From an uncultured Pelagibacteraceae bacterium (GTDB taxonomy: Bacteria > Pseudomonadota > Alphaproteobacteria > Pelagibacterales > Pelagibacteraceae), in NCBI GenBank assembly GCA_902538495.1, contig CACBFJ010000002.1, forward strand, positions 1-64,000: a DNA stretch of 64,000 bases. The letters run 5' to 3'. This document shows, piece by piece, positions 7,486 through 13,233 of this stretch. A program made the position numbers and the translations under genes. The notes below the pieces were generated by a model. The model made no database searches, was not told the DNA's origin, and was given only the letters and a program-made list of their open reading frames with translations. Positions within the stretch are counted from its first letter, which is position 1. Each line of letters begins with the position of its first letter.

Positions 7486-7779
7486 TTGGTTGTTGTAAAG
7501 TCAAAACTTTTAAAACAGATTTCTAGTAGCTTTCCAAATTTTCAAAAAAAAGACTTAGCAAAAATAACAGATATAATATTAAACGAGATAAAAAAAGCTC
7601 TTAAGAGAGGAGAAAGAGTAGAATTTAGAGGCTGGGGATCTTTAAGCGTCCGAAATCAAAAACCATCTATAAGAAGGAACCCTAAAACAGGTGATAAAGT
7701 TGCAGTGCCAGCCAAAAAAGTAATTTATTGGAAAATGAGTAAAGAAATGTTTAAAGAGATAAATAATGAAAAAGAGTAA
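7486..7779 (+). CDS. ihfB: Integration host factor beta subunit / HU-family DNA-bending protein
   Basis: Small DNA-bending protein (97 aa) of the HU/IHF family. The beta-arm is seen as RGWGSLSVRNQKPSIRRNPKTGDKV, with the DNA-intercalating Pro in RRNPKTG. Helical N-terminus: LLKQISSSFPNFQKKDL. The start taken is TTG at 7486, because no ATG precedes the conserved region, and the position downstream of rpsA matches IhfB. The stop overlaps the pyrF start by 14 nt. It could be a single all-purpose HU-like protein; the IHF-beta call follows synteny. Confidence 0.88.
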   Translation: MVVVKSKLLKQISSSFPNFQKKDLAKITDIILNEIKKALKRGERVEFRGWGSLSVRNQKPSIRRNPKTGDKVAVPAKKVIYWKMSKEMFKEINNEKE

Positions 7780-8440
7780 GATATTTGTTGCTTGCGATAC
7801 ATCAAAGATATCTAGAATAAAGAAAATTATAAAAGATACTAAAAATAGCAAGTTAACAATTGGATATAAAGTAGGTTTAGAGTTTTTAAACTCAAAAAAC
7901 GGTAGAATTTTTCTGTCCAAATTAAGAAATAAAATAATATTTGCGGATTTAAAACTTAACGATATTCCAAATACTTGTACAGCAACAATAAAAGCAATTA
8001 AAGATTTGAAAATCAATTATTTGACTATCCATATAAGTTCAGGATTAAATGCTCTTAAAGCTGCAAAAGAGATATCTGGTAAAATAAAACTGATAGGTGT
8101 AACAGTTCTTACCTCATTAGATAATAAAGCATTAAAAGAAATTGGATTTAATAAAGATGTAAAAAAACTAGTGCTTCATCAAGTAAAATTAGCAAATAAA
8201 GCAAAATTAGATGCTATCGTGTGTAGTGCGCAAGAGGTAAAATTAGTGAAAAAGATATTCAAAAGAGAAATAATAACTCCAGGGATAAGATTTACATCAA
8301 AAACAAATGATCAAAAAAGAGTTTTGACGCCCAATGAAGCTTTTGCAAACGGAGCTGATTGGCTCGTGATGGGTAGAGATTTAACGAGAGGTAATATTAA
8401 AAGAAATACAAAAAAACTTATTGATCACTTAAATCAATGA
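7766..8440 (+). CDS. pyrF: Orotidine-5'-phosphate decarboxylase
   Basis: Last step of UMP synthesis: OMP gives UMP plus CO2. The 224-aa TIM barrel carries the catalytic Asp-x-Lys-x-x-Asp tetrad segment in FADLKLNDIPNT (about residues 50-61), with VTVLTS, CSAQE, TPGIR and VMGRDLTRG (the phosphate-binding end; usually GRPIT). It overlaps ihfB by 14 nt and trpF by 4 nt (ATGA), so it is part of the same coupled run. Confidence 0.93.
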   Translation: MKKSKIFVACDTSKISRIKKIIKDTKNSKLTIGYKVGLEFLNSKNGRIFLSKLRNKIIFADLKLNDIPNTCTATIKAIKDLKINYLTIHISSGLNALKAAKEISGKIKLIGVTVLTSLDNKALKEIGFNKDVKKLVLHQVKLANKAKLDAIVCSAQEVKLVKKIFKREIITPGIRFTSKTNDQKRVLTPNEAFANGADWLVMGRDLTRGNIKRNTKKLIDHLNQ

Positions 8441-9054
8441 TTAAAGGATTAAAAATTTGTGGTGTATCTGATCCTAAAACATTAAATTTTATTTTAAACC
8501 ACCCCCACCCACCAAAATTTATAGGCTTTATTACTAATTATAAAAAAAGCAGAAGATTTATTGAATATGAAAAATTAAAAAAATTAATTAATGTCGAAAA
8601 AAAACAGGTCAACTTTACTTCTGTTCTAGTTAATCCAACTGACGAAATTTTAGAAAAAATAAAGCTTTTAAATTTTGATTATTATCAACTTTATGATGTA
8701 AGCCCTCAAAGAACTAAGGAAATTAAATTAAAGTATAAAATCAAAATAATTACTGCAATTACAATTTCTAATAAAAATGATGTAATTAGATATAAAGATT
8801 ACTTAAATATTTCAGATATAATTCTATTTGACTCAAAAGGTTATCATAAATCTGAAAGTTTTGATCATAATTTACTAGATGGAGTATCTAAAAAATTAAA
8901 TAAAATGATTGCAGGAAATATTCAAATAGATGATATTCCAAATTTCAAAGATAAAGACTATATAATTGATCTTAGCGGAGCATTAGAGGATGAGAATGGA
9001 AAAAAAGATATTAATAGAATTAATAAATTGTTAAGTTTATCCTCAAGGATATGA
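8437..9054 (+). CDS. trpF: Phosphoribosylanthranilate isomerase-like protein (diverged TrpF)
   Basis: Expected reaction: Amadori isomerisation of phosphoribosylanthranilate in tryptophan synthesis. The 205-aa TIM barrel starts KGLKICGV and keeps the catalytic Cys, and the general-acid Asp is in ILFDSKG. Arg corresponding to the substrate-carboxylate ligand is kept in KKSRRFI. Several hallmarks are lost: the PGGTG loop reads KGYHKSESFDH, QLHG reads QLYD, the LAGGL segment reads IAGNI, and SSGVE reads SGALE. ATGA overlaps join it to pyrF and trpB. Its position is the standard trpF slot, so orthology is likely; whether it still makes CdRP is uncertain. Confidence 0.8.
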   Translation: MIKGLKICGVSDPKTLNFILNHPHPPKFIGFITNYKKSRRFIEYEKLKKLINVEKKQVNFTSVLVNPTDEILEKIKLLNFDYYQLYDVSPQRTKEIKLKYKIKIITAITISNKNDVIRYKDYLNISDIILFDSKGYHKSESFDHNLLDGVSKKLNKMIAGNIQIDDIPNFKDKDYIIDLSGALEDENGKKDINRINKLLSLSSRI

Positions 9055-10286
9055 AATTAAGAAAAGGAATACAGGTAATTGATCAAGGAAATGAACTTGG
9101 TTTTTGGGGGGGTAAATTTGGAGGTAACTTTGTTCCTGAAACTTTGAAAAAACCTATTGAAGATTTAGAGATCCTGTTCAACAAACTAAAAAAAGATAAG
9201 AAATTTATTGCTGAAAGAGATAAATATTTTAAAAATTGGATAGGAGTTCCCACACGTTTCTTAAAATTGGAAAATTTAACAAAACATGTGGGAGGGGCTC
9301 AAATCTGGTCCAAGGTTGTATCAGATGCAAATGGTGGCGCACATAAAATCTATAACGCCACAGTTCATTGTTTGTTGGCAAAACGCTCTGGTAAAAAAAT
9401 TATATGTGGTGACACTGGTGCTGGATATGCAGGTAAAATGTTGAGTATGGCAGCAAAAAAATTCGGCCTAAAATGTAAAATTTTTATGGGAGCAAAAGAT
9501 ATTGAAAGACAACAACCAAATGTAAAAGCCATGAAAAAAAATGGTGCTGAAGTCATACCTGTTTATTCAGGAAGTCAAACCCTAGTTGATGCTGTTTCTG
9601 AGTGTATGCGTTTTTGGGTTGCTAATTGTGACACCACGGCTATGTGTGTTGGAAGTACTGTAGGTCCAGCTGTTTTTGTTCGTATCTGTGGATGGAGTAC
9701 AAGCCAAATATCAAGGGAATTAAAAGTCCAATTAATCGACGAATTTGGTTTTATTCCAAAAAAACTTAAACTTTATAATTGTGTTGGAGGTGGTAGTTCA
9801 AGTTTTGGTTTTTGGAATGAATTTATGGATTATGACAAAAAACAATGCGAATTTATCGGAGTTGAGGCTGGTGGGCCTGCAAAAAGTAAGAGGCATGCTG
9901 CACCTCTTACTTACGGTTCAAAAATTGGAATTCTACACGGGGCAGCACAATACGTTAATCAGAATTCAGACGGACAAATAGAAGAAACAGAGTCTATTTC
10001 AGCAGGACTTGACTATCCAGGAATTTCTCCTCTTCATTGTTTTCTTAAAGATACTAAAAGAGCAAGATATACAGCTGCCAGTGATGAGGAAGCATTAGAA
10101 GCTTATAAACTTGTGACAAAATATGAAAAATTAAAGCCATCTTTGGAACCAAGCCATGCATTTTCTGTTGCAATAAGAGAAGCAAAAAAAATGAGTAAGA
10201 ATACAATTGTTGTAGTTAATAGTTGTGGTGATGCTTATAAAGATAAAAAAATTTTAAGAAATAGACTTGGAAAAAAATATGCTTAA
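9051..10286 (+). CDS. trpB: Tryptophan synthase beta chain homologue with remodelled active site
   Basis: PLP enzyme of fold type II, 411 aa, in the trpB slot. The Schiff-base Lys is kept in GGAHK (Lys99), as are MGAKDIERQ, ISAGLDYPG, the Asp of LDYPG (D321) and the Glu in SLEPSHA (E366). Compared with Salmonella TrpB numbering, catalytic E109 is Asp121, Q114-H115 of TGAGQH are Tyr126-Ala127, interface K167 is Val179 (TLVDA), phosphate-loop N236 of GGGSN is Ser250, PLP-N1 ligand S377 is Cys392, and R379 is Asp394. RPTPLY reads VPTRFL, and GPHPYP is replaced by GPAVFV. The frame is complete and overlaps trpF and trpA. It is TrpB-derived beyond doubt; a changed reaction or substrate is possible. 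Confidence 0.85.
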   Translation: MKLRKGIQVIDQGNELGFWGGKFGGNFVPETLKKPIEDLEILFNKLKKDKKFIAERDKYFKNWIGVPTRFLKLENLTKHVGGAQIWSKVVSDANGGAHKIYNATVHCLLAKRSGKKIICGDTGAGYAGKMLSMAAKKFGLKCKIFMGAKDIERQQPNVKAMKKNGAEVIPVYSGSQTLVDAVSECMRFWVANCDTTAMCVGSTVGPAVFVRICGWSTSQISRELKVQLIDEFGFIPKKLKLYNCVGGGSSSFGFWNEFMDYDKKQCEFIGVEAGGPAKSKRHAAPLTYGSKIGILHGAAQYVNQNSDGQIEETESISAGLDYPGISPLHCFLKDTKRARYTAASDEEALEAYKLVTKYEKLKPSLEPSHAFSVAIREAKKMSKNTIVVVNSCGDAYKDKKILRNRLGKKYA

Positions 10287-11079
10287 CCCAATTGACCTTG
10301 CTTTTAAAAAAGCTAAAAATGAAAATAGACCAGCTCTTTTAACTTATACTGTGGCAGGTGATAGTACCAAAAACCAATCTCTAGTAATACTTAATGCTAT
10401 ATCAAAATATGCAGATATTTTAGAATTAGGAGTCCCACATAACACACCAGTTGCAGATGGAAGCCAAATACAAACTAGTGCATATAGAGCCATAAAAAAT
10501 GGAATTAAGATTGAAGATATTTTTTGGATAGTAAAAAAATATAAGAAAAATAAAAATTCAAAACCTATTATTTTAATGGGTTACTATAATATGATATTTC
10601 AATACGGAGAAAAAAAATTTTTAGACAAATGCAAAAAAGTGGGCGTCAATGGCTTAATAGTCGTTGATTTGCCTTGGCCAGAAAATAAATCTTTTATTAA
10701 AAAATGTAAAAAAAAATCAATTTATTTAATTCAACTTTTATCACCTACAACTTCAAAGGAAAGACTTAATAAAATAATTAGAGACTCTCATGCTATGAAC
10801 TATTTCATATCAATGCTATCTACTACGGGTGGTAAATTAAAAGTATCTGCTAAAAAGATTATGTCGAATTACTTTAAAATTAAAAAAATTAATCCAAAAA
10901 AAAATGTTGTAATAGGTTTTGGAATTACAGAAAAATCAATAAAATCCTTAAAAAAAGCCGATGGATTAGTAGTTGGAAGTGCAATTTGTAAGGAAATTTC
11001 TGTTTCAATTCAAAAAAGACAAAATCCTGTCACAAATGTTGCTAATTTAGTGAAAAAGCTTAAATATAAAATTTTATGA
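10279..11079 (+). CDS. trpA: Tryptophan synthase alpha chain homologue (altered channel loops)
   Basis: TIM-barrel subunit that cleaves indole-glycerol-phosphate to indole. The ATG at 10279 (266 aa) is preferred over the TTG at 10267. It gives an 8-nt overlap with trpB and puts residues exactly at Salmonella numbering: Glu49 and Asp60 are present, as are Thr183-Gly184 and the phosphate-binding GFGI and VVGSAI. Loop 2 reads VPHNTPVADG instead of VPFSDPLADG, so the interface Asp56 is Thr. Loop 6 reads SMLSTTGG instead of SRSGVTG, so Arg179 and Gly181 are lost. These changes pair with those in TrpB. The 3' end overlaps accD by 4 nt. Confidence 0.86.
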   Translation: MLNPIDLAFKKAKNENRPALLTYTVAGDSTKNQSLVILNAISKYADILELGVPHNTPVADGSQIQTSAYRAIKNGIKIEDIFWIVKKYKKNKNSKPIILMGYYNMIFQYGEKKFLDKCKKVGVNGLIVVDLPWPENKSFIKKCKKKSIYLIQLLSPTTSKERLNKIIRDSHAMNYFISMLSTTGGKLKVSAKKIMSNYFKIKKINPKKNVVIGFGITEKSIKSLKKADGLVVGSAICKEISVSIQKRQNPVTNVANLVKKLKYKIL

Positions 11080-12011
11080 ACTGGATTACTAAAATAATTA
11101 AGGCAGGAGAAAAGATTAAGTCAGCTCTTCACAAAAGAGCCACGAAAGAAGATATAGCAAATAGTGACTGGACATCGTGTTGTAAAGGCCCGATCTTAAA
11201 AAAAGATCTTGAAAAAAACTTGTGGGTTTGTCCTGAGCCTGAATGTAATAAACATCATAGAATTACCCCAAAACAAAGATTTGACATTCTTTTTGGTGAA
11301 AAGAATTATGAAATTTTCAAAACACCAATTCCTAAAGATGATCCACTCAACTGGACAGACTCAAAATCTTATAAAGATAGACTAAAGAGTGCTAGAAAAA
11401 AAACAGGTATGGATTGTGGAATGATGGTTGTCTGTGGATCAATTAACGATATTAAAATTACTGCTGTTGCATCTGACTTTGATTTTTTAGGAGCGTCAAT
11501 GGCAGCTGCTGAAGGTGAGGCTTTTTTATATGGTGTTCAATATGCAATTGAAAATAAAACTCCTTTTTTGTGTGTTAGTGCTGGTGGAGGAATGAGGATG
11601 ATGGAAAGTTTAATTTCTCTATCCCAAATGACAAGAACGACTTTAGCGATTAATGAATTAAAGAAAAACAATCTACCATACATTGTTTGTATTACTGATC
11701 CAACAGCGGGAGGCATTACTGCATCTTACGCTATGTTAGGTGATATTCATATAGCCGAACCAGGTGCTTTAATTGCATTTGCTGGCGCAAGAGTAATTCA
11801 GGGAACGGTTAAAGAAGAATTACCTGAAGGTTTTCAAAAAAGTGAATATGTTGAAAAAACTGGATTCGTAGACTTGATTGTTGATAGAAAAGATCTATCT
11901 GAAAAAATTGGAACTTTATTATCAATACTGTTAAAGAAAAATTCTGCTATAAATTTTGAAGAAAATGAAACTTCAGAAGATCCTCAATCGCTTACAAAAG
12001 CTGCATCCTAA
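11076..12011 (+). CDS. accD: Acetyl-CoA carboxylase carboxyltransferase subunit beta
   Basis: Transfers CO2 from biotin to acetyl-CoA in fatty acid synthesis, as a partner of AccA. It is 311 aa. An N-terminal zinc ribbon is followed by the crotonase-fold carboxyltransferase domain (DPLNWTDSKSYKDRL, SAGGGMRMMESL, PTAGGITASYAMLGD, AEPGALIAFAGARVI, LPEGFQKSEY). The ribbon spacing is odd: the first CxxC is an adjacent Cys35-Cys36 pair, and the second is C52-x4-C57. The gene begins inside the trpA stop (ATGA) and ends overlapping the folC start, which is the usual trpA-accD-folC order. Confidence 0.93.
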   Translation: MNWITKIIKAGEKIKSALHKRATKEDIANSDWTSCCKGPILKKDLEKNLWVCPEPECNKHHRITPKQRFDILFGEKNYEIFKTPIPKDDPLNWTDSKSYKDRLKSARKKTGMDCGMMVVCGSINDIKITAVASDFDFLGASMAAAEGEAFLYGVQYAIENKTPFLCVSAGGGMRMMESLISLSQMTRTTLAINELKKNNLPYIVCITDPTAGGITASYAMLGDIHIAEPGALIAFAGARVIQGTVKEELPEGFQKSEYVEKTGFVDLIVDRKDLSEKIGTLLSILLKKNSAINFEENETSEDPQSLTKAAS

Positions 12012-13233
12012 AGAGATCGATCTTAGCTTAGATAGAATAAAAAATCTTTGTGAAAAATTAGGAAATCCACAGGATGAAATAAAATGTATACAAGTATGCG
12101 GGACTAATGGAAAAGGTAGCACAATTTCTTTTTTAAGATCTATACTTAGAGAAGCGAATATTAAATGTAATGTATACACCTCTCCTCATGTAAAGAATAT
12201 TAATGAGAGATTTGTTTATAATGATGAAATGATCAGTGATAATGATCTATCAGATTTATTATCTAAAATTGAAGAAATAAACAATAATCAACCTTTAACA
12301 TATTTCGAAGCTCTCACAGCTGCATTTTTTTATGGGTGCAAAAAATATAAAAAAAATCTTGTGATTGCAGAATTTGGCCTATTTGGACGAGGAGATGCTG
12401 TAAATATTTTAAAAAAAAATCTTTGTAATATAGTTACCTCATGTAGTGAGGATCACTTAGACTGGTTACCAGAAAATGACAGAACTATTGAAAGAATAAT
12501 TTTTGAAAAAACCTCATCTTTACTAAATTCAAATATAGTAGTTGCAAAACAAAATTCTAATGAAATTGTAGAATGTATTAAAAAAAATATATTTGATAAT
12601 AACGCAAATAAATATTTTTTTAATGAAAATTACAATTTTGTTTTAAAGGAAAATAATTTCTTTTATTATGAGGATAAATATGGTGGTTTAAAAATTCCAA
12701 AACCTAATTTAAATGGACAATTTCAACTTGAAAATGCTGCTACAGCGATTGCATCATTGAGAATTTTAGAGGATATAAAAATTAAGGACCAACACATAAT
12801 AGATGGAGTTCAAAAAGCATCCAATATTGCCAGACTTGAGGAAATTAAATCTGGTAAACTTAAGGATTTAGTAAAAAATAATAGACTGATTCTTGACTCT
12901 TCACATAATCCTGATGGAGCAAAAGTTCTTAATGAATATCTTCAGACTTTAGATTGTAACAAACATATTATTATAGGTATGATGGCTAATAAAAATCATG
13001 AGGAATATATAAGTTATTTTAAAAATATTTCATCTTTAACGACAGTTGATATACCAAATCAACCTAATGCTTTAAGTGGAAAAGAATTAAAAGAAAAATT
13101 TAAGGATATACCTAATGTTATTTATAAGGAAAGTATTCAAAAAGCCATTCAATCAATAAAATTAAAAGAGAACGATTTGCTTTTAATTACTGGTTCATTG
13201 TATTTAAGTGGTGAATTTTTAAATATTAATTAA
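11965..13233 (+). CDS. folC: Folylpolyglutamate / dihydrofolate synthase
   Basis: Mur-ligase-family enzyme that adds glutamate to (dihydro)folate, 422 aa. N-terminus: LHPKEIDLSLDRIKNLCEKLGNP. ATP loop VCGTNGKGST (45-54), followed by YTSPHVKNINERF, EDHLDWL, FEKTSSL, LNGQFQLENAATA, DSSHNPDGA and ITGSLYLSGEF. The ATG at 11965 is chosen over the TTG at 11956 because it places the conserved LHPK motif near residue 13. It overlaps accD by 47 nt. The normally EVGLGGRLDATN segment reads EFGLFGRGDAVN. The stop overlaps the convergent trxA stop by 4 nt. Confidence 0.9.
   Translation: MKLQKILNRLQKLHPKEIDLSLDRIKNLCEKLGNPQDEIKCIQVCGTNGKGSTISFLRSILREANIKCNVYTSPHVKNINERFVYNDEMISDNDLSDLLSKIEEINNNQPLTYFEALTAAFFYGCKKYKKNLVIAEFGLFGRGDAVNILKKNLCNIVTSCSEDHLDWLPENDRTIERIIFEKTSSLLNSNIVVAKQNSNEIVECIKKNIFDNNANKYFFNENYNFVLKENNFFYYEDKYGGLKIPKPNLNGQFQLENAATAIASLRILEDIKIKDQHIIDGVQKASNIARLEEIKSGKLKDLVKNNRLILDSSHNPDGAKVLNEYLQTLDCNKHIIIGMMANKNHEEYISYFKNISSLTTVDIPNQPNALSGKELKEKFKDIPNVIYKESIQKAIQSIKLKENDLLLITGSLYLSGEFLNIN

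Follow-up and report, generated by a model that had tools for sequence, protein, structure and literature searches.

Textbook accounts of tryptophan synthase give Glu109 and loop betaL3 a central catalytic role, and in the Salmonella enzyme PMC9512447 describes E109 as stabilising the indole N1 and the R141-D305 pair as closing the COMM domain. According to the same source, Q114 of the closed enzyme forms bonds with N145 and R148, the indole subsite is spanned by H115 and F306, and the Q114A substitution causes a shift in intermediates. Nearer to the genes treated here is the trpB_1 cluster that Kagan et al. 2008 (PMC2395257) placed around P. ubique HTCC1062, which has the same gene order and very probably comprises the same proteins. 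Kagan et al. 2008 argued that trpB is functional in P. ubique since the organism carries one copy, and their passages on this cluster discuss neither its active-site residues nor other trpBA classes at the locus.

Here, we describe a computational analysis of a trpB gene in a 64,000-nucleotide stretch of DNA from an uncultured Pelagibacteraceae bacterium (contig CACBFJ010000002.1, positions 1 to 64,000; hereafter the window). The gene belongs to a SAR11 class, here termed type A, whose active site departs from that of ordinary TrpB at several positions. We hold with considerable confidence that type-A TrpB works as a tryptophan synthase beta subunit and that trpBA classes are exchanged as pairs by recombination.

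Results

The trpB open reading frame (9051-10286 of the window, plus strand, as are its neighbours listed below) begins with ATG, encodes 411 amino acids and is uninterrupted, sharing 4 nt with the trpF stop and 8 nt with the trpA start. Upstream lie pyrF (7766-8440), a conserved neighbour, and trpF (8437-9054); downstream lie a type-A trpA (10279-11079), accD (11076-12011) and folC (11956-13233, start codon uncertain). The trpF product scores at best 99 bits against an NCBIfam cut-off of 216, and 78 bits against a Pfam cut-off of 22.7. The TrpA protein scores 210 bits against a 102-bit NCBIfam cut-off and retains E49 (10423-10425) and D60 (10456-10458), with T56 (10444-10446) in place of D56. 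Purifying selection on trpB is indicated by dN/dS values of 0.024-0.072 between the window gene and seven homologues that are 96-97% identical to it. An earlier note on this DNA had described an intact-frame TrpB homologue at the usual trp locus, and the uninterrupted frame, these ratios and the adjoining trpF and trpA bear it out.

Residues are numbered below as in E. coli/Salmonella TrpB, and the separate numbers of the window protein are given in brackets. The PLP Schiff-base lysine K87 (K99, 9345-9347) is retained, as are R141 (R153, 9507-9509), described in PMC9512447 as the closed-state salt-bridge partner of D305, and S235, D305 (D321, 10011-10013) and E350 (E366, 10146-10148). The segment containing E109 and loop betaL3 reads D121-TGAG-Y126-A127 (9411-9431), which amounts to E109D, Q114Y and H115A and turns TGAGQH into TGAGYA. 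Altered along with Q114 is R148, its hydrogen-bonding partner in Salmonella (PMC9512447), which is Ala (A160, 9528-9530). N236 is Ser (S250, 9798-9800; GGGSN to GGGSS), K167 is Val (V179, 9585-9587), and S377-G-R-G-D381 has become C392-G-D-A-Y396 (10224-10238), in which the Cys is frequent in ordinary TrpB and D394 and Y396 are not. RPTPLY reads VPTRFL, and GPHPYP reads GPAVFV. The earlier note had reported retention of the lysine, E109D, TGAGYA, GGGSS, S377C, R379D and loss of the RPTPLY and GPHPYP motifs, all of which we find in the window protein; R148A, K167V, D381Y and other changes had escaped it. An AlphaFold model built on 30 close sequences reached a pLDDT of 41.5, too low for use.

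These changes are characteristic of the class. D109 and S236 occur in 152/152 distinct type-A sequences, whereas E109 and N236 occur in 70/70 distinct ordinary TrpBs, a non-random sample made up mostly of best matches to type-A, -E or -F queries. H115 and R379 are likewise present in all 70 ordinary rows and in no type-A row, position 379 being Asp in 126 of the 152 and Lys, Ser or His in the remainder. K87, T110, G111, A112, G113, R141, S235, D305 and E350 are present in every type-A row. Conservation among ordinary rows reaches 95% or more at 155 positions; type A has lost 52 of these, and type F, another class described below, 62. The view that the altered positions are near-invariant in TrpB holds for E109, H115, N236 and R379 (70/70 each) but not for Ser377, which is Cys in 44/70 ordinary sequences, nor strictly for Q114, which is Met in 7/70. 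Since Cys377 is so common in ordinary TrpBs, it does not separate the dehydratase branch from TrpB, and the suggestion that it points to dehydratase chemistry has to be given up.

The states of positions 109, 114, 115, 145 and 148 are coupled. Ordinary TrpBs carry E-Q-H-N-(R or K) in 63 of 70 rows and Met114 in the other seven; the 152 type-A sequences carry D-Y-A-N-A (116), D-M-F-N-F (25) or one of three rarer sets (11). Read with the roles of these residues in Salmonella, the coupled states indicate that the contact between Q114 and R148 has been altered together with the wall formed by H115, and that the closure pair has been retained. The Salmonella E109D mutant has altered specificity and favours elimination. 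Because of this, and because Q114A shifts the intermediates in Salmonella, the specificity of the type-A enzyme may have shifted as well.

Residues 19-402 of the window protein match solved TrpBs, at 2.4e-94 for 5dvz, which we take to be the P. furiosus TrpB structure, and at 1.3e-99 for LBCA-b (5ey5). Against TIGR00263 (TrpB1) the window protein scores 375.7 bits, below the NCBIfam cut-off of 392.45, and the type-A protein of genome G429, presumably P. ubique HTCC1062, scores 403.7 bits, above it. Membership in TrpB2/TrpB-like (TIGR01415), a family of the same superfamily as type A, was rejected (95.9 bits against a cut-off of 518.85, and a far branch in the tree), as was membership in the serine/threonine dehydratases (18.8-22.3 bits for the four listed models against cut-offs of 331-550).

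A tree of 71 rows joined types A and B in one clade (support 100, stem 1.03), set 24 ordinary TrpB1 rows apart (support 81), joined types E and D (support 99) and placed type F deepest (support 100); the tree was built rapidly and flagged long branches, which makes the branching order among the clades uncertain. The earlier note had allowed that the gene might fall inside ordinary TrpB1, and type A lies outside those rows. Type A has K87 and S235, the R141-D305 pair and an adjacent trpA with E49 and D60, all expected of a TrpB1. It is nevertheless not classed as ordinary TrpB1, because Glu109, the curated score (in the case of the window protein) and placement inside the ordinary clade were tested as well and each was found wanting. 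Among the genomes searched the type-A clade is confined to SAR11, and the best 80 genome-contig matches to the window protein are all from Pelagibacteraceae.

The window genome (966 kb in 26 contigs, 86.5% complete) was searched, as the earlier note had proposed, for a second canonical trpB and for trpC, trpD and trpE. No trpB besides the window gene was found at E<=10 in this assembly, whose incompleteness makes a second copy on the missing DNA possible; trpE (486 aa), trpG, trpD and trpC lie contiguously on contig C12. E49 and D60 are each present in 151/151 type-A TrpA sequences. In G429, a single contig of 1,308,759 bp, and in G409, presumably HTCC7211, type A is the single TrpB match; the G429 protein is 76% identical to that of the window and carries GDTGAGYA, GGGSS and SCGD. 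HTCC1062 grows in artificial seawater with vitamins, glycine, glycine betaine, pyruvate and DMSP, and the medium as described in PMC5069961, its table of salts and metals aside, names no tryptophan. The earlier note had held that these residues in sister SAR11 genomes, together with proven prototrophy, would be decisive against its own reading, and both are largely at hand: the residues are present in G429, and prototrophy is indicated by this medium.

Type A is one of several classes that occupy the same place. At this fixed locus SAR11 bacteria carry at least three trpB+trpA classes that are 24-40% identical to one another (A with B; E with D; F), and in relatives the TrpBs that fill the slot also include E, F and ordinary types, which retain E109. 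A TrpB match at E<=1e-10 was found in 341 of 399 genomes of the genus, including 55 of the 57 that are at least 90% complete; two of these 57 gave no match at this threshold. Typing by E-value, which decided many of the type-A calls, and by sequence for the odd cases assigned 311 of the 341 to type A (some partial), 11 to E, 9 to F, 2 to D and 1 to B. A remote TrpB2-like gene, found elsewhere in some SAR11 genomes (L114, L119, L120), is the sole match in the other seven. In genomes with an E or F match, the searches made revealed no additional type-A match. Among the genomes listed, several in-frame stops interrupt type-A trpB in G084:C11 and G318:C4, perhaps through decay or assembly error, and a single in-frame stop occurs in trpB of G198, G255 and G114.

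The minor classes have altered sites of their own. In type E, D305 of TrpB is replaced by Thr or Gln (11/11) and the catalytic D60 of TrpA by Glu (11/11), the latter a state also seen in 6/56 ordinary rows; judged from these residues, type E is another, putative altered tryptophan synthase. Type-F TrpB, the most divergent, has S113, M114, K141, S379 and S382 in 9/9 sequences and scores 314 bits against the cut-off of 392.

The distribution of types was compared with a tree of aroA and rpsA, comprising 45 loci (21 A, 10 E, 9 F, 2 D, 2 B and 1 ordinary); 20 of 22 E, D and F genomes had enough flank to be included, and the type-A rows were hand-picked. The tree required 21 changes of type against a mean of 21.6 after shuffling, and 87 of 200 shuffles needed no more changes than that, so that type bears no visible trace of flank ancestry, as judged by two genes that lie only kilobases from trpBA and also recombine. 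Types E and F appear at many places on this tree (9 and 8 changes).

Pairs of closely related genomes reveal the extent of the exchanged segment. G106 (type A) and G286 (type E) are 35% identical in trpB and 29% in trpA, against 80% in aroA, 97% in rpsA, 89% in pyrF, 60% in trpF, 96% in accD and 94% in folC. Their nucleotide identity is 83-94% from rpsA to pyrF, 64-73% in trpF and 42-60% across trpB-trpA, and it returns to 88-97% from just within accD to the end of folC; in three A/E pairs the recovery falls within the first ~150-300 bp of accD. An E-E pair of loci has no such dip at trpB-trpA. The nearest flank relative of the window is G124, a type-F genome that shares 94% identity with it in rpsA, 27% in trpB and 33% in trpA. 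Here the exchanged block seems, from the identities, to have been longer and to have reached accD and folC, because these are only 50% and 29% identical as well.

In 134 pairs whose rpsA identity is 80% or more, among which minor types are over-represented, identity falls below 40% for trpB in 66% of pairs, for folC in 35%, for pyrF in 6% and for trpF in 1%; accD and aroA never fall so low. With loci grouped at 50% identity, trpF forms a main cluster of 31 of 36 genus loci with five type-F loci apart, and folC forms two divergent classes of 26 and 9 of 35 loci, the larger containing 15/15 type-A loci; accD has three outliers among 35. Unlike aroA, rpsA and pyrF, trpB and trpA each separate into three distinct clusters, and the interval from 40 to 50% identity contains no pair. 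G429 and G179 share 130 syntenic orthologues, taken from simple ORF calls, whose median identity is 83.5%, and a divergent block comprises trpB (35%), trpA (31%), accD (47%) and folC (30%). The block is not unique, since ten of the 130 orthologues, trpB, trpA and folC among them, are less than 40% identical. A branched-chain amino-acid ABC transporter-like block at ~640518-644468 of G429 (L262) is 24-42% identical to its G179 counterpart, and these genes may be paralogues.

The two subunits change class together. TrpB and TrpA classes agree in 229/229 SAR11 loci, counting B with A and D with E, and with some genomes represented by more than one locus. The residue pair beta167-alpha56, which we take to correspond to the salt bridge between K167 and D56 in Salmonella tryptophan synthase, is K-D in 56/56 ordinary rows, V or I with T, C or A in 151/151 of type A, V-C in 2/2 of type B, L-T in 9/9 of type F, and K or R with E in 13/13 of types D and E. 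Charge is thereby matched in 231/231 rows; since sequences of one type share ancestry, these represent a handful of independent changes rather than 231. This pattern fits co-adapted subunits; the passages on the complex in PMC9512447 do not name the salt bridge.

A source of the types outside SAR11 was not found in the genome samples drawn. The best-scoring non-SAR11 matches to type A, among 387 genomes of the class, are 43-46% identical, and relatives from outside the order, among the matches listed for 397 genomes of the phylum in each search, reach at most 51% identity to type E and 39% to type F. A phage origin was rejected: single-sequence scans of viral contigs, which reach close relatives only, returned no relatives of type-A, -E or -F TrpB. 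A scan with a mixed alignment gave one match, viral contig L365, and 19 phage records carry TrpBs that are less than 60% identical.

Discussion

Type-A TrpB, which forms a divergent clade, most likely serves as a functional beta subunit of tryptophan synthase, as predicted from its retained residues and its setting. With TrpA, it would convert L-Ser and indole to L-Trp through conventional PLP chemistry, K87 performing the acid-base steps, Asp109 probably replacing Glu109 in stabilising the charge at the indole N1, and R141-D305 still serving to close the COMM domain. Residues Q114, H115 and R148, which line the substrate loop and the indole subsite, would have been altered as a group, to Y-A-A and, in a sub-branch, to M-F-F. 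Classes would replace one another through homologous recombination in the conserved flanks, and trpB and trpA presumably travel as a unit owing to contacts between the subunits that are particular to each class.

Why the types are scattered is a separate matter. It is rather probable that the scatter is a neutral by-product of high recombination in SAR11 acting on a few old acquisitions, an explanation compatible with a working enzyme and with pairwise exchange, and opposed only to the balanced system considered below. Genome-wide recombination in SAR11 has been published (PMC12374537); folC also has two classes and the ten weakly conserved orthologues reach beyond trpBA; and with type A in 311 of 334 TrpB1-class genomes the others could be rare passengers. 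The spread of types E and F over the flank tree and the discrete trpB and trpA clusters with their empty interval at 40-50% fit this explanation less well, and neither point proves selection. More tentatively, SAR11 trpBA could be a balanced multi-allelic system in which ancient, catalytically distinct pairs are held by selection, a proposal that we regard as doubtful; the balancing force might be a rare-type advantage against an inhibitor, or niche-dependent kinetics.

The earlier note had favoured altered beta-replacement or elimination chemistry, or an acceptor other than indole. On such a reading, for example with beta-elimination of serine, tryptophan would be made by another route or taken up. 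Four residues found in all ordinary TrpBs examined (E109, H115, N236 and R379) have indeed gone from type A, and E109D favours elimination in Salmonella. Such a change is nonetheless improbable in view of the single TrpB, the trpE-G-D-C-F genes, the catalytic acids of TrpA, the E109-retaining E-, F- and ordinary-type TrpBs in the same slot of relatives, and the growth of HTCC1062 in a medium whose description in PMC5069961 names no tryptophan. Least probable is relaxed selection in bacteria that import tryptophan, their TrpB drifting: the conserved positions lost in types A and F, the in-frame stops in five genomes and the two nearly complete genomes lacking a match are in its favour, but the low dN/dS, the coupled substitutions, the fixation of D109 and S236 and the presence of a match in 341/399 genus genomes (55/57 of the more complete) oppose it.

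The divergent SAR11 cluster has been known since 2008; its altered active site, the several classes per slot and the exchange of pairs were not met in the literature searched. Type A resembles the ordinary TrpB1 of E. coli and Salmonella in its PLP lysine, GGGS phosphate loop, R141/D305, E350 and downstream trpA, and differs from it by E109D, Q114Y, H115A, R148A, N236S, R379D, D381Y and K167V and by forming its own clade. Its sites are natural and apparently viable alternatives, and hence test cases for what catalysis and channelling need, and the proteins, whose hosts are among the most abundant marine bacteria, offer new scaffolds for TrpB engineering. Pairwise replacement of trpBA among close relatives also makes subunit co-adaptation and the reach of SAR11 recombination directly testable.

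As a genetic arrangement, the locus recalls the replacement flexible genomic islands described in PMC4033161, where different clusters of similar function are exchanged at one place through recombination in their conserved flanks. Those islands typically encode exposed cell structures linked to phage recognition, whereas trpBA is a two-gene core biosynthetic enzyme; a balanced trpBA system, if true, would be the analogue of a surface-antigen locus for an enzyme of core metabolism. The OP3 and Gamma variants of SAR11 narG, ~45% identical and treated in sections of PMC12374537, are likewise divergent homologues that recombination has spread among SAR11. They occupy separate hotspots with apparent gene sweeps, whereas the trpBA classes share one slot, at which both subunits change together.
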